Source: Blastococcus sp. PRF04-17
GTDB lineage: Bacteria; Actinomycetota; Actinomycetes; Mycobacteriales; Geodermatophilaceae
Direction of reading: 5' to 3'
DNA: 64,000 nt
Assembly (NCBI RefSeq): GCF_023016265.1
Contig: NZ_CP095412.1
Span: 1,054,001 to 1,118,000, forward strand
Shown: positions 7,514 through 38,002 of the stretch, piece after piece
Layout: the number at the start of each line of letters is the position of its first letter
How positions within the stretch are numbered: position 1 is the stretch's first letter
The notes under the pieces: generated by a model
The model's database searches: none
Seen by the model: only the letters and a program-made list of their open reading frames with translations
What the model was told of the DNA's origin: nothing
Program-made: the position numbers and the translations under genes

Positions 7514-9290
7514 TCAGTGCGCGGGGTTCGTGGGCCCCGGCGCCCCCGGCTCACCGGGCAGCGGCGGCTCCTCCGGTTTCGCGTCGATGCCGGCCTCCTT
7601 GCGCTGCGCGTCGGTGATCGGCGTCGGCGCACCGGTCAGGGGGTCGAAACCGGCACCGGTCTTGGGAAAGGCGATGACCTCGCGGATCGACTCGACGCCC
7701 GACAGCAGCGCCGACAGGCGGTCCCAGCCCAGGGCGGCACCGGCGTGCGGCGGCGGGCCGTAGGCGAACGCCTCCAGGAAGAACCCGAACCGCTCGCGGG
7801 CCTCCTCGCGGGACATGCCGAGGGTCTCGAACACCCGCTCCTGCAGCGCGGCGTCGTGGATACGCACCGAGCCGCTCATCACCTCGTTGCCGTTGATCAC
7901 CATGTCGTAGGCGTCCGAGAGCGCCGCACCCTTGTCGTCGGCGAACGTCTCCCGCCACTCGGGGGTGGGCGAGGTGAACGGGTGGTGCATGAACGTCCAG
8001 GAGCCGTCCTCGGTCTCCTCGAACATCGGGAAGTCGACGACGAACAGGAACGACCACGAGCCCGGCTCGATCAGCTCCAGCCGGCGGGCGATCTCGTTGC
8101 GTGCGGCGCCCAGCAGCTCCTGCGAGGACCGCCGGGCCCCGGCCGCGAAGAACACGCAGTCACCCGGCGAAGCCCCGACGGCCGCCACGAGCCCGGCGCG
8201 CTCGGTGTCGGAGATGTTCTTGGCGACCGGCCCGCCGAGCTCGCCGTCCTCGCCGATGGTCACGTAGGCCAGGCCTCGGGCGCCGCGCGACTTGGCCCAG
8301 TCCTGCCACGCGTCGAACGCCCGCCGCGGCTGCGAGCCGCCGCCGGGCATGACGACCGCGCCGACGTAGGGCGCCTGGAACACCCGGAACGGTGTGTCCG
8401 CGAAGTACGACGTCAGCTCGGTCAGCTCGATGCCGAACCGCAGGTCGGGCTTGTCCGACCCGAAGCGATCCATCGCCTCGCGGTAGGTCATCCGCGGGAT
8501 GTCGGGCACCTCGTAGGAGGCCAGCTCCCGCCACAGCGCCCGGACGACGTCCTCCGCGACGGCCAGGACGTCGTCGCGCTCGACGAAGCTCATCTCGAAG
8601 TCGAGCTGGGTGAACTCGGGCTGCCGGTCGGCGCGGAAGTCCTCGTCCCGGAAACAGCGTGCGATCTGGTAGTACCGCTCGAGCCCGCCGATCATGAGCA
8701 GCTGCTTGAACAGCTGCGGCGACTGCGGCAGCGCGTACCACTTGCCCGGCTGCAGCCGGACGGGGACGACGAAGTCGCGCGCGCCCTCGGGCGTCGACCG
8801 GGTCAGGTTCGGGGTCTCCACCTCGGCGAACCCGTGCCGGTGCATGACCTCGCGCGCGATCCGGCTGATCTCCGAGCGGATCCGGATCGCCCGGGCGGGC
8901 CCCCTGCCGGCGCAGGTCGAGGTAGCGGTACCTGTAGCGGACGTCGTCCGACGCCGCCTGGTCGGTCTCGATCGGGAACGGCAGCGGCGCCGCCGCCGAC
9001 AGGACTTCCAGCGAGGAGGTGGCCACCTCGACCTCCCCGGTCGACAGCTCCGGGTTCTCGTTGCCCTCCGGACGGCGGCGCACCTCACCGGTCACGAGCA
9101 CGCAGTACTCGTTGCGCAGGTGGTGGGCCTCCTCCTCCCGGACGACGACCTGGACGTAGCCCGACGCGTCACGCAGGTCGAGGAAGACGACGCCGCCGTG
9201 GTCGCGGCGGCGGGCGACCCAGCCGGCGAGGGTGACGGTGGTGCCGGCGTCGGACGCGCGCAGCGTTCCGGCGTCGTGGGTGCGAAGCAA
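7514..9290 (-). CDS. aspS: Aspartyl-tRNA synthetase, interrupted by a one-base frameshift
   Basis: Class II synthetase charging tRNA-Asp (or tRNA-Asp/Asn). The N-terminal anticodon-binding OB domain ([23 protein letters not shown]) is read in one frame, and the catalytic core ([44 protein letters not shown], and motif 3 ALGWDRL near the end) in another. The switch falls at a run of five C at 8900-8904 (plus strand). Removing one base gives [15 protein letters not shown] and a 591-residue enzyme of usual length. As aspS is essential, a sequencing insertion is the likely cause. The apparent start is TTG with GAAAGG upstream. Confidence 0.93.
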
Positions 9291-30466: not shown

Positions 30467-32513
30467 CCGGCCACCGTGCTCATCGGGTCACGGCCCTCCG
30501 CCGTCGGGTCGCTGTTGGCGCGGGAGGCGATCCACGCGGCGACCTGCTCGACGGCGTCGTCCACCGGGATGCCGTTGTTCTGCGACCCGTCGCGGTAGCG
30601 GAAGGACACCGCGCCGGCCTCGGCGTCGGTGGCGCCGGCGATGAGCACGAAGGGCACCTTCTGCTTGCTCGCCGTCCGGATCTTCTTCTGCATGCGGTCG
30701 TCGGAGTCGTCGATCTCCACCCGGATGCCCTTCGCCCGCAGCCTCAGCGCGACGTCACGCAGGTAGGGCACCTGCTCGTCGGTCACCGGGATGCCGACGA
30801 CCTGCACCGGCGCCAGCCAGGCCGGGAAGGCGCCGGCGTAGTGCTCGGTGAGCACTCCGAAGAACCGCTCGATCGAGCCGAACTTCGCCGAGTGGATCAT
30901 CACCGGCTGGGCCCGGCCGCCGTCGGCCGAGGTGTACTCCAGCCCGAAGCGCGCGGGCTGGTTGAAGTCGTACTGGATGGTCGACATCTGCCACGTGCGA
31001 CCGATCGCGTCGCGCGCCTGCACCGAGATCTTCGGGCCGTAGAAGGCCGCGCCTCCTGGGTCCGGGACGAGCTCGAGGCCGGTCTCCTTCGCGGCGTCCT
31101 CGAGCACGCGGGTGGCGACCTCCCACTCCTCCGCCGACCCGATGAACTTGGCCGCCTTCTCGGGGTCGTCGCCGCGGGTGGACAACTCGAGGTAGTAGTC
31201 GTCGAGCCCGAAGTCCTTGAGCAGCCCGAGCACGAAGGCGAGCAGGTGCCGGATCTCTCCCGGCGCCTGCTCCGGGGTGACGTAGCTGTGCGAGTCGTCC
31301 TGCGTGAGCCCGCGGACGCGGGTCAGCCCGTGGACGACGCCGGACTTCTCGTAGCGGTACACCGAGCCGAACTCGAAGAACCGCAGCGGCAGCTCGCGGT
31401 AGGACCGCCCGCGCGACCGGAAGATCAGGTTGTGCATCGGGCAGTTCATGGCCTTGAGGTAGTACTTCGAGTTCTCCAGGTCCATGGCCGGGAACATGGT
31501 GTCCTCGTAGTACGGCAGGTGCCCGGAGGTCTCGAACAGGCCGCCCTTGCTGATGTGCGGCGAGCCGACGTAGTCGAAGCCCTCCTCGATGTGCCGCCGG
31601 CGGACGTAGTCCTCCATCTCCCGCTTGACGACGCCCCCTTGGGGTGGAACACCGCCAGGCCGGAGCCGATCTCGTCGGGGAAGCTGAACAGGTCCAGCTC
31701 GGCGCCCAGGCGGCGGTGGTCGCGCCGCTCCGCCTCGGCGAGGTGCTCGAGGTAGGCCTTGTGCGCCTCCTTGCTCTCCCAGGCGGTGCCGTAGATGCGC
31801 TGCAGCTGCGGGTTCTTCTCGCTGCCGCGCCAGTACGCCGCCGCGGACCGGGTGAGGCTGAACGCCGGGATGTTGTTCGTGCGCGGCAGGTGCGGACCGC
31901 GGCACAGGTCGGTCCAGACCCGCTCACCGGTGCGCGGGTCGAGGTTGTCGTACATGGTCAGCTGGGCGCCGCCGACCTCCACGTCTGCGCCCTCGGCCGC
32001 TTCACCGGCACCGCCCTTGAGCCCGATCAGCTCGAGCTTGTACGGCTCGTGCGCCAGTTCGGCCTGCGCGTCGGCGTCGCTGATCTCGCGGCGGGCGAAG
32101 TTCTGCCCGGCGCGCACGATCTCGGTCATCTTCTTCTCGAGCGCCTGCAGGTCCTCCGGGGTGAAGGGCCGGTCGGGGTCGAAGTCGTAGTAGAAGCCGT
32201 TCTCGACAGGGGGCCCGATCCCCAGCTTGGTGCCGGGGAACAGCTCCTGCACGGCCTGCGCCAGCACGTGCGCGGTCGAGTGGCGGATCACCGCACGGCC
32301 CTCGGCGCTGGTGGCGGGGACGGGCTCGACCTCGGCGTCGGTGCCGGGCGTCCAGGCGAGGTCCTTGAGCTCGCCGCTCGCCACCTCGCGGACGACGACC
32401 GCGCCGTCGGCCCCCTTGAGCGGCACTCCGGCGTCCTTGAGCGCCTGCATCGCCGTGGTCCCGGCCGGCACCTGGATCGGCGGCACGGCGGTGGGCGAGG
32501 GCGCGGTGGACAC
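30463..32513 (-). CDS. thrS: Threonyl-tRNA synthetase, interrupted by a one-base frameshift
   Basis: Class II synthetase with an N-terminal TGS domain ([17 protein letters not shown]), editing domain ([25 protein letters not shown]), catalytic core ([39 protein letters not shown]) and anticodon-binding domain ([16 protein letters not shown]). The frame switches at [13 protein letters not shown], where the plus strand has five C at 31634-31638 and six are needed. Corrected length is 683 residues. Being essential, the gene is probably intact in the cell. The start is GTG. Confidence 0.93.
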
Positions 32514-34250: not shown

Positions 34251-34652
34251 TTAGGCCACGCGGGGCCCGCCCTGCCGACCCAGGCGTCGCAGCTGGCCGT
34301 CGAGGTAGGGCCGCGCCCGGCGGAGCCCGCCCTCGCTGCCGATGACCTCGGCGAGCCGGGTCAGGGACCTCCGCAGACGGGCCTCGTCGGGCTGCCAGCC
34401 CCGGCGCCGGCACTCCTGGAGCCACTCGACCGGCGTGCGGTGGCCCCGCTCGGCGTTGCACCGGCGGCAGGCCGCGACCTCGTTCTCCAGCCGGGACGGG
34501 CCGCCCTTGACCCGCGGCACCACGTGCTCGGTCGTCGGCATCACCAGCGACGCGAAGGAGCGGCCGCACCAGATGCAGGTGCCGCCGTCCCGCTGCAGGA
34601 TCTCGGCGAGGCGCGCGGCGCGGCCGGGCAACGGACGGGACATCGAGTCCAT
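34251..34652 (-). CDS. HNH endonuclease domain protein
   Basis: A 133-residue protein with an HNH nuclease core. It has the first zinc pair CIWCGR, the catalytic EHVVPR, then LENEVAACRRCNAERG with the second zinc pair and the Asn. A helical C-terminus follows. The exact start is uncertain: ATG 34652 or ATG 34643 (MSRPLPGRAARL), and an upstream ATG at 34691 is also in frame. Proteins like this act in phage packaging, restriction or repair; nothing here decides. It is divergent from the LRR-Roc-COR-TIR gene. Confidence 0.85.
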   Translation of the reverse strand: MDSMSRPLPGRAARLAEILQRDGGTCIWCGRSFASLVMPTTEHVVPRVKGGPSRLENEVAACRRCNAERGHRTPVEWLQECRRRGWQPDEARLRRSLTRLAEVIGSEGGLRRARPYLDGQLRRLGRQGGPRVA

Positions 34653-34730
34653 AGTGCCCGAAACGGCAAGACACCGGCGGACGATGCCCAACCGCTCCAG
34701 CGAGCCGAACGGAACCAGTAATCTCCATAA

Positions 34731-37700
34731 ATGGCCCGGGGCAAGCGGCGACAGAACTCCTCACCGCCCGCGCCCATGGGCTCGGATGCCTGGGATCGGA
34801 TCGCAATCGACGAAGTGGCGTCAGGCCGGACGACGACTCTCGACCTCCGGGACCTGGAAACGCCCAGTCACCGGATCACCGAGCTGCCGTCTGAGGTCAG
34901 GGGTCTGCGCAATCTCACCGAGCTGAGGCTGGGAGACACTCGGCTCACCGGCCTGCCCGACTGGTTGTGCGAACTCCCGCGACTCGAACTCGTCGACGCG
35001 AGAAGCGTGAGGTTGACAACCCTCCCCGCTCTGCCACGGGCGCGATGGGCGCTGAATGCCGAAACGGTGCGCACATGCGCCGACCACATCGACCCCCGTG
35101 CCATCTTCTCGGTCCGCGTCGATCCGAAGACCTCGGACACCGCGCTGCGACACCTAGTCCGGCTCACGCAGGAACGAGCGATGACGCTCAGCATCCTGAC
35201 AGTGGGTGGGACTATCACTCTTGCCAACCGGGACCGGACGGCAGCGCAATGGACCGATCTGGAGCGGCTTGAGACGCACCTCGACGCCCTCCTGCGCGGC
35301 CAGCCCGATCTTGATCACGTGCTCATCTGGGGATGCCCCCTCGGTCGGGTGCCGCAAGGCTTGGCCGCGTTGCGGAAATTGCACGTCCTGGCCTTGATCG
35401 CCGTCTACCCGGATCACCTACCGGACTGGCTGTTCTCGTTCCCCGAGCTGAGAACCCTCGGCCTGTCACACAACAACCTGAAGGACCTCCCCACAGCCAT
35501 TGCCAAGGCGCGGACGCTCGACTCGCTCGATTTGAGCAACAACCCCTTCAGGCGAGTGCCAGAGGGCGTGTGGGACCTCTCGAACCTCAGGACCCTGTCG
35601 CTGGACGACTGCCCGATCAGTGAGGTCCCGGCGGCCATCCTGCGTCTGGAGAAGCTGGAAGACCTTTCTTTGGGTTCACCCTTCGAGCGTCAGGCAACGC
35701 CGCCGAAAGGCCTTGTCCGGCCACCACCGGAGATCGCGATCCACGGCGTGGAGGCGATCAAGAACTACTGGCGTCAGCAGCAGGCCGTCGGAGTCGACTA
35801 CCTCGCCGAGGCGAAGTTGCTGATCGTCGGCGAGCCCGGTGCCGGCAAGACCACGCTGGCGAAGAAGCTGCTCGACCCCGGCTACGTCCTCGACTCCGGC
35901 GAGCAGTCGACCGAGGGGATCGACGTCTCCACGTGGGAGTTCCCGAGCGCCATCCGCGTCCAGTCGGACGGCAGCGAGGACCTGCTCCGCTGCACCTTCC
36001 GTGCCAACATCTGGGACTTCGGTGGGCAGGAGATCTACCACGCCACGCACCAGTTCTTCCTCACCCGTCGGTCGGTGTACGTCCTGGTCACGGACGAGCG
36101 CAGGGAGGACACCGATTTCGAGTACTGGCTCGAGGTCGTGAACCTGCTCAGCGACGGCAGCCCCGTGCTGATCGTGCAGAACCAGAAGCAGGGCCGTCAC
36201 CAAGGAATCGACTTCAGCGATCTCCGGCGGCGGTACCCCAACCTCCGGCCGCCGCTGACGCTGAACTTGGCAGACAGGCGGAGTCTCAAGCCGGCCGTCC
36301 AGCGGATCCGCGCCGAGCTCGAACAGCTGCCCCACATCGGCACCCCCTGCCGAAGACGTGGCGTGACGTCCGGGTGGCGCTCGAGTCCGACTCCCGCGAC
36401 CACGTGAGCGCCGAGGAGTTCTTCCGGATCTGCGAGGCGCACGGGTTCGATCGCCGGCAGGACATGCTGCAGCTCGGCGGATACCTCCACGACCTGGGGA
36501 TCTGCCTCTTCTTCCAGGACGACGAGCTGCTGTCGCGCACCGTGGTCCTCAAGCCGGAATGGGGAACGGGTGCGGTCTACCGCGCTCTCGATGATCCGAA
36601 GATCATCCGCAACCTGGGTGTCTTCGGCCCCGCCGACCTCAAGCGGATCTGGCACGAGCCTGCGTACGCATCGATGCGAGCCGAGCTGTTGCAGCTCATG
36701 GTGCGGTTCGGCCTCTGCTACCGGGTTCCGGGCTCGGAGACCTTCGTGGCGCCCCAGCTTCTGTCCCCGACTAGGCCGTCATACGCGTGGGACGACGCGG
36801 ACAACCTCCTGCTCCGGTACGAGTACGACGTCATGCCGAAGGGAATCGTCCGCCGGCTGATCGTCGCGCTGCACGACCTGATAGAGCCCGGCGACAACGT
36901 CTGGCGCACCGGAGTCCTCCTCCGACACGACCTGACGCAGGCCGAGATCATCGAGGACTACCGGCGCCGGCGCCTGACGATCCGGTTGCGCGGCGGCGAT
37001 CCGCGGATCTTGCTCGCCATGATCGACCGCGAACTGGCTGCCGTTCACCGGTCCTACCCGGCGATTCGATTCGAGAAGTACCGCCCCTGCGACTGCGATC
37101 GATGCGCCGTCGCAGTTGAGCCGACCATGTTCACCATCGGTGAGCTCATGGACTTCGTCGTAGACGGCTCCGGCATCCAGTGCAGGCGCAGCCGAACGCT
37201 CCGGGACGCCGCTGCCTTGCTCCACGGCCTCTACAAGGACCCGGTACAGAGCTCCGGCTCAGCCGCGAGCGGCAGGACCGCACCCGCCGCCCAGCCGGAG
37301 ATATTCGTCTCCTACAAGTGGGGCGGAGACGCCGACGCGCTCGTCGACGAGATCCAGCAGCGCATGTCCGAGCGGGGGTGCACATCACCCGCGACCGCGA
37401 CGAGGTGGACTACCGCAATTCGATCGAGCAGTTCATGCGGCGGCTCGGAGCCGGCAAGTGCGTCGTCGTCGTGCTGGACCAGGCGTACCTGCGCTCGCGG
37501 AACTGCATGTACGAACTGAGCCGAATCGCGGAGGATCCGAGCTTTGCCACGCGGGTCTTCCCGGTCGTCATGCCCGACGCGGGCATCTTCGATCCGCTGG
37601 AACTGGTCAGGCACGTCAAGCACTGGGAGACCAGGCAGAAGGAGCTGGACGAGGCCATGCGGACCGTCGGCCAGGAGAACCTCCAGGGCATCCGGGAGGA

Positions 37701-37869
37701 CCTGGACCTGTACGAGACCATCCGCAACACCATCGCCGGGATCCTGAACGTTTTGCGGGAGATGAACACGCTGACCGTGGCTGCGCATCAGGCCGACGGG
37801 TTCGAGCGGCTCTACCGCTCGCTGGAGAAGGCCCTGGACCTTGGGCGGTCACCTACGGCCGATCATTGA
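34731..37869 (+). CDS. LRR-Roc-COR-TIR protein, with two one-base frameshifts
   Basis: A large signalling protein of about 1046 residues after correction. Residues 25-330 hold leucine-rich repeats (LGLSHNNLKDLPTAIAKA, LDLSNNPFRRVPEGV). The Roc GTPase follows with P-loop GEPGAGKTT (367-375), switch STEGIDVSTW, DFGGQE (429-434) and NQKQ (484-487). Then comes COR, with a CDCDRC cysteine cluster near its end, and a C-terminal TIR domain from about 856 (EIFVSYKWGG) with the likely NADase Glu929 (SRNCMYEL). The frame breaks at C5 36343-36347 and G5 37374-37378; adding one base at each restores one continuous protein. GC is clearly lower than in the neighbours, suggesting transfer. No partner effector gene is adjacent. 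Confidence 0.87.
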
Positions 37870-37925: not shown

Positions 37926-37930
37926 TTCGG

Positions 37931-38002
37931 TGGGCGATACTGGGTTCGAACCAGTGACCTCTTCGGTGTGAACGAAGCGCTCTACCACTGAGCCAATCGC
38001 CC
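37931..38002 (-). tRNA. tRNA-Val (CAC)
   Basis: A 72-base cloverleaf with acceptor GGGCGAT, a TTCACAC anticodon loop giving anticodon CAC, and T-loop GGTTCGAACC. CCA is not encoded. Its 3' end faces the LRR-Roc-COR-TIR gene. Confidence 0.95.

Follow-up and report, generated by a model that had tools for sequence, protein, structure and literature searches.

A leucine-rich repeat Roc-COR gene ending in a TIR domain in Blastococcus is a candidate GTP-switched immune receptor

The 64,000-nucleotide stretch of Blastococcus sp. PRF04-17 DNA analysed here (the window, in whose numbering all positions are given) carries on its plus strand, at 34731-37869, a gene laid out in three consecutive reading frames of the ORF list and joining leucine-rich repeats (LRR), a Roc GTPase, a COR domain and a TIR domain. 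Our main reading, to which we assign a probability of roughly 0.6, is that these frames encode one full-length receptor of a cyanobacterial kind, acquired alone between an HNH endonuclease gene and a tRNA-Val gene, which would pass from sensing through a GTP switch to NAD+ cleavage. The observed architecture is confirmed and lies far beyond chance, because single-frame relatives align with it over nearly the whole length; beyond it, we infer ligand sensing, the GTP-driven opening, NAD+ cleavage and a role in defence.

Results

A Roco protein read in three frames

The first reading frame (34731-36345, plus strand; ORF list, Pfam and alignment) encodes the N-terminal LRRs and the Roc GTPase. With the pieces scanned separately by Pfam, it matched LRR_14 at 5.5e-17, and strict repeats lie at 34914 and within 35448-35681. 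The Roc domain (35814-36185; Pfam Roc 4.6e-23, and alignment) retains both the P-loop GEPGAGKT (35829-35852) and DFGGQE (36015-36032), which the preliminary description had rightly called intact. At the aligned G4 position (36180-36194) it reads NQK, which is no fault of the window copy, since the aligned cyanobacterial core-clade rows have NEK or NQK there. The second frame holds COR-A (36350-36763; Pfam 5.3e-40) and COR-B (36803-37171; Pfam 1.4e-26) and ends in the start of the TIR domain, EIFVSYKWG (37295-37375), placed by eye against the aligned TIR rows. The remainder of the TIR domain and the C-terminal part make up the third frame (37390-37869; Pfam TIR_2 8.7e-07, and alignment), with a candidate catalytic Glu in NCMYEL (37501-37518), whose numbering as Glu929 presupposes that the frames are joined. 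The TIR_2 match scores 29.9 bits against a cut-off of 28 and covers profile positions 22-110 of 122; it is partial because the first TIR strand sits in another frame. All four components attributed to the gene were recovered by Pfam from the separately read pieces.

A Roc domain with P-loop and DFGGQE, with COR directly after it and contiguous when compared with all 14 relatives used, characterizes the product as a Roco protein. Pfam matches to LRR and TIR_2 on the pieces fit the design of the predicted AP-GTPase counter-invader proteins; the joined frame is absent from the assembly and is a single frame in six relatives. The product does not qualify as a STAND NTPase: an nSTAND3 match spans the P-loop only and reaches 18.4 bits against a cut-off of 27.2, the switch being Roc-COR. 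A PADLOC scan of the gene pieces returned no fitting model, just weak P-loop-like matches (best 7e-05), and the HNH gene, the sole neighbour scanned, matched HNH-type models weakly (6e-04 at best); no Thoeris model was among the matches of the pieces or of this neighbour.

Both frame changes are most likely assembly errors

Three frames imply two frame changes, which the preliminary description had reported as frameshifts and which the ORF list and the aligned proteins of relatives place at about 36.34 kb and 37.38 kb. Almost no sequence is missing at the breaks. At the first, the alignments meet or overlap in all 14 relatives used as queries, with at most two residues unaligned; at the second, they resume at once in six of the 14, those bearing this TIR. 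The pieces are free of internal stops, and their GC contents by codon position (0.67/0.46/0.84, 0.68/0.44/0.88 and 0.67/0.38/0.90) form a coding signature in all three, close to the one seen in two host genes, whose third positions are at 0.94 and 0.97.

Breaks of the same type run through housekeeping genes of the window. Both aspS (at 8884-8901) and thrS (at 31635) are frame-split when compared with three of three genus relatives. For the essential gene aspS, whose copy number was checked, nothing else in the genome scores above the family cut-off, and its own match is split in two frames. As the two genes are broken alike, and aspS is without another match over the cut-off, the assembly contains false breaks. 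Comparison of 104 kb of this genome with three same-genus genomes yielded eight break sites, four of them supported by at least two relatives; at the two supported sites other than aspS and thrS, the relatives' ORFs match a prolipoprotein diacylglyceryl transferase and an FAD-binding dehydrogenase (two of three relatives each). The same count in three control assemblies, aligned over 33-78 kb per query, gave 0, 0 and 1 supported breaks. This one-contig genome is 95.89% complete, while two genus members assembled in 4 and 10 contigs reach 100% and 99%. In the stretches of 60-90 bases inspected, the breaks of aspS and thrS each coincide with a run of at least five equal bases, as do the two breaks of the gene; around the other two supported background sites, the nearest 40 bases contain no base run.

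We therefore regard both frame changes as most likely assembly errors and the protein as most likely full length. A real pseudogene is fairly unlikely; in that case, slippage at base runs would have broken the frame of a horizontally gained receptor two times and left it inactive in this strain. At 0.17, the number of supported breaks that the background rate predicts for this 3.1-kb gene is indeed below the two frame changes observed (P of two or more about 0.012, a figure based on four events and up to 75 kb aligned); the gene is isolated, none of the 15 other genus genomes having a COR-A relative; and base-run slippage also occurs as natural mutation. Against decay stand the similar breaks in aspS and thrS of the same window, the former without another match over the cut-off, together with the freedom from stops within the pieces, the almost complete lack of loss at the breaks and the strong codon bias in all three frames, so that a working gene is well ahead of a dead one. 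Programmed translational slippage, by which the three frames would be joined in the cell, could draw on the equal-base runs at both breaks, but is extremely improbable: six relatives are single open frames, two such events per message are unlikely, and the housekeeping genes of the window show the same type of break. For frame-broken genes in this assembly at large, a pseudogene label needs checking first.

The gene occupies a variable spot beside tRNA-Val

The acquired piece is bordered on the left by the HNH endonuclease gene (34251-34691, minus strand) and on the right by tRNA-Val(cac) (37929-38002, minus strand), both of them conserved. Ten of the 15 other genus genomes have a close HNH relative (66-73% identity), and beyond it lies tRNA-Val in nine of these ten, the tenth (L010) being a short fetched contig. 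On these counts we rejected the idea that the acquired piece includes the HNH gene. Counted from the aligned HNH start, the tRNA follows after 108-155 bases in four of the nine genomes, after 312-485 bases in two and after 0.9-3.5 kb in three, with the three long intervals filled by other ORFs; COR-A is absent from all 15 genomes. The interval between HNH and tRNA-Val is a variable spot beside a tRNA. The position between an HNH gene and a tRNA had been read as a sign of horizontal gain, and the gain stands, but the HNH gene, a neighbour conserved within the genus, does not belong to what was acquired.

Capture by an integrase at the tRNA end was considered and rejected, as no integrase lies between HNH and tRNA-Val and none of 13 direct-repeat families (at least 14 bases, 34.0-38.7 kb) links the tRNA-Val end to the other border. 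In one relative (genome G006, L025:6621-10126), the interval from HNH to tRNA-Val is occupied by other genes over about 3.5 kb, among them, by eye, one for a multicopper-oxidase-like protein.

COR groups with cyanobacterial Rocos

COR-A was found in one of 61 genomes of the near-relative set, that is, in none of 60 near relatives. With the genome itself included, it occurs in 2 of 296 genomes of the class sample and 17 of 397 of the order sample, and in the phylum sample (1 of 396) in this genome alone; the four samples overlap. A search of the genome's contigs with a single COR piece returned one locus. Within a sample of the class to which a Xenococcaceae cyanobacterium (the genome of L002) belongs, by comparison, 78 of 252 genomes contain a relative at 1e-20 or better, and 37 of these 78 have two to five matches each (rows counted by hand). 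Nine plasmid records also carry a COR match. No lead came from searches of phages with the COR piece, of plasmids and phages with the TIR piece, of 347 other genomes of the host's order with the TIR piece, or of viral contigs with both pieces.

In a tree of 66 COR sequences, the window COR forms the outermost branch of a group with 37 cyanobacterial rows (100/99); 19 of the 20 Rocos from the host's own order and class lie apart from it (100/99). The window branch is long (0.94), and the program flags a risk of long-branch attraction. Forty of the listed cyanobacterial match places were retrieved, picked by likeness to the window COR or because the match extended to where the TIR begins, which leaves the tree unable to rank donors; a duplicate (L031) and fragments (L105, L143, L164 and L170) were left out. 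This grouping, together with the absence of COR-A from the 60 near relatives, upholds the horizontal gain proposed earlier. The same absence means that selection in this lineage cannot be demonstrated.

At 65.9%, the GC content of the gene is indeed below that of its surroundings (72.2% for the window), as previously remarked. Third-position GC amounts to 0.84-0.90 in the gene; the two host genes stand at 0.94 and 0.97, and eight cyanobacterial relatives span 0.23-0.61. These values suggest that the transfer is old or passed through a high-GC carrier, and they speak against a recent transfer straight from the sampled cyanobacteria.

A cysteine cluster marks the COR clade

The motif PCDCDRC (37085-37105, second frame) forms, with a downstream Cys, a putative metal site of the pattern PCxCxxC...C (37085-37189, plus strand). 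Of 37 core-clade rows, 35 have PCxCxxC and a further Cys within 45 residues. Rows from outside the host's order and class have it in 39 of 50 cases (one of the 39, L031/L154, being a duplicate record); among the 20 rows from inside that order and class, none shows this spacing. The motif is missing from four of the six single-frame TIR relatives (L138-L141), whose COR belongs to another clade. In these alignments, PCxCxxC goes with the COR clade rather than with the TIR. The idea that the cluster is a peculiarity of this protein was rejected on these counts: what the preliminary description took for an extra oddity is a conserved hallmark of a Roco clade.

One TIR subfamily follows several switches

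The Glu of the S.NCMxEL stretch is invariant in all seven aligned TIR rows and falls in the same column as the Glu of plant NLR TIRs, in keeping with the earlier remark that the domain bears the Glu of NAD-cleaving TIRs. A profile of the seven rows had plant NLR TIRs as its best solved matches (RPV1 2.5e-07, Roq1 3.4e-07, L6 2.5e-05, RUN1 5.5e-05), and Roq1 and RUN1 cleave NAD+.

Six cyanobacterial genes (L138, L139, L140, L141, L157 and L163) encode LRR-Roc-COR-TIR proteins of 942-1074 aa in a single frame. Their TIR domains are 38-50% identical to that of the window; COR identity is 27-30% in L138-L141, of the other clade, and about 41% in L157 and L163, which have PCxCxxC. The same TIR subfamily is present in 15 of 223 genomes of that cyanobacterial class, where it also sits behind other domains: a helical one associated with NACHT in L180 (NCH2 2.3e-32), an AAA-like one in L181 (AAA_35 2e-140) and EAD1, together with a second TIR, in L179. 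Roc-COR accordingly stands where other proteins with this TIR have a different module, as the preliminary description had proposed in saying that it replaces the usual STAND NTPase. The L179 gene (1507-3297, minus strand) combines EAD1, two TIR_2 matches, the last of which is of the gene's subfamily, and a weak TRADD-like N-terminal match.

Scanning of 48 C-terminal tails identified TIR_2 in 14, CHAT in two and EAD1 in one (at 0.001; the tally excludes L031 and L105). L163 (TIR), L032 (CHAT) and L033 (EAD1) belong to one COR clade (100/94), and the seven cyanobacterial carriers of this TIR require at least three label changes on the COR tree (gains or losses, the window uncounted), which together argue that outputs were exchanged on related cores. 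The 20 Roco tails of the host's order and class (L080-L099) share the consensus GPRLFT, LWCEHS and PRxWL and have no Pfam or NCBIfam match at 0.001; the best PDB matches of their profile are plectin (3.7e-04) and viral coiled-coil proteins. Among 49 neighbouring ORFs of at least 100 aa around the six cyanobacterial loci, a single alike pair was found, in two loci, which fits a one-gene system.

Three mobile settings of COR genes deserve mention. On the Photobacterium toruni plasmid NZ_CP101696.1, a COR Roco gene (L107:3741-6479) lies between genes for TnsA-type, Mu-type transposase and TniB proteins and those for TniQ and type I-F Csy proteins, and looks as if it were inside a CRISPR-associated transposon. 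On the Acaryochloris plasmid pMB06 (L105:3668-6459), LRR, COR and DUF4062 are three successive genes in the same direction, as if an LRR-Roc-COR-DUF4062 gene had been split. A COR protein of the Nostoc plasmid pn3 (L106:2823-6311) is annotated with a SAV_2336-type N-terminal domain, and its gene adjoins a MoxR ATPase gene near a NACHT gene, a neighbourhood that recalls the ternary conflict systems outlined in a passage of PMC7159879.

Discussion

How the receptor would work

In our main reading, the LRR would bind an invader-derived molecule and thereby let Roc exchange GDP for GTP. GTP-bound Roc would then swing the LRR away and alter the COR-COR contact, an opening that we carry over by analogy from the Chlorobium tepidum protein CtRoco (PMC11052575). 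The freed TIR domains would self-associate, and their assembly would cleave NAD+, upon which the infected cell would stop growing. If the gene works in this manner, an LRRK2-type GTPase switch would directly drive a TIR NADase, linking a Parkinson's-related fold to bacterial immunity, and would provide a small, testable system for the effect of GTP on a Roco protein. The six single-frame cyanobacterial relatives offer a way to test it that spares the broken copy.

The gene might instead encode a GTP-switched signalling protein, with the TIR as a scaffold or as the maker of a signal molecule for a distant effector, or with a role in development or stress rather than defence. TIRs do not all destroy NAD+, no partner gene is common to the relatives (that one pair among 49 neighbour ORFs at six loci), and two to five matches occur in 37 of the 78 matching cyanobacterial genomes. 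This reading is quite unlikely, however: the Glu and the TIR core are kept, domains of conflict systems (CHAT or EAD1) take the same place in sister proteins, and the nine plasmid records with COR comprise, by PLSDB type, three conjugative, two mobilizable and four non-mobilizable ones.

Returning to the receptor reading, we tentatively put forward a wider proposal, in which bacterial Rocos would be a GTP-switched counterpart of NLRs, with an LRR-Roc-COR core, exchanged TIR, CHAT or EAD1 outputs and spread on plasmids and even within an apparent CRISPR-associated transposon. The gene would be a long-established non-cyanobacterial member in which firing of the LRRK2-type GTPase makes the TIR cleave NAD+. 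If true, the ancestral job of the LRRK2 switch would be a direct immune one.

Comparison with known systems

The design of the gene is already predicted in print. In section 15, Kaur et al. (2021; PMC8195603) predict a counter-invader role for bacterial LRR-AP-GTPase-COR proteins, whose C-terminal domains number at least 24 and include TIR. Like the gene, these AP-GTPase (Roco) proteins have an N-terminal LRR, an AP-GTPase (Roc), COR and a variable C-terminal effector; unlike that set, the gene is one copy, in an order where 17 of 397 sampled genomes have COR-A. Protection against invaders by such proteins is a prediction of PMC8195603, and literature consulted mostly at title or abstract level contained no test of it, no experiment on a bacterial Roco-TIR and no activity data for any member. 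A passage of PMC6337361 places all prokaryotic Rocos known in 2019 in an LRR-RocCOR-only group. Among eukaryotes, a TPR-ROCO-TIR of the red alga Chondrus crispus is mentioned, and brown algal ROCOs are treated as candidate immune receptors, in the relevant part of PMC11378527. DUF4062, which adjoins the LRR and COR genes on the Acaryochloris plasmid, provides a parallel: it is reported to be a family of TIR-like NADases, along with an antiphage system (passage in PMC13174449).

Closer to the host, the 20 other Roco tails of its order and class differ from the gene in having no Pfam domain at 0.001. The cyanobacterial L138-L141, L157 and L163 share its domain order and Glu motif, although L138-L141 have a COR of another clade without PCxCxxC. 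PDB chains 6hlu and 8r4b, which we take to be CtRoco, match the gene at 1.2e-34 and 1.6e-34; CtRoco has the same LRR-Roc-COR core, and we know of no TIR in it. CtRoco is known to dimerize through COR; when GTP-bound, it is an open monomer, reached by a very large change with the LRR-Roc linker as hinge, according to PMC11052575.

For the TIR, the nearest solved counterparts are the plant TIR-NLRs RPV1, Roq1, RUN1 and L6, the best of which matches the gene's TIR profile at 2.5e-07. Plant TIR-NLRs likewise combine LRR and TIR, but have a STAND NTPase instead of Roc-COR and bear their TIR at the N-terminus.
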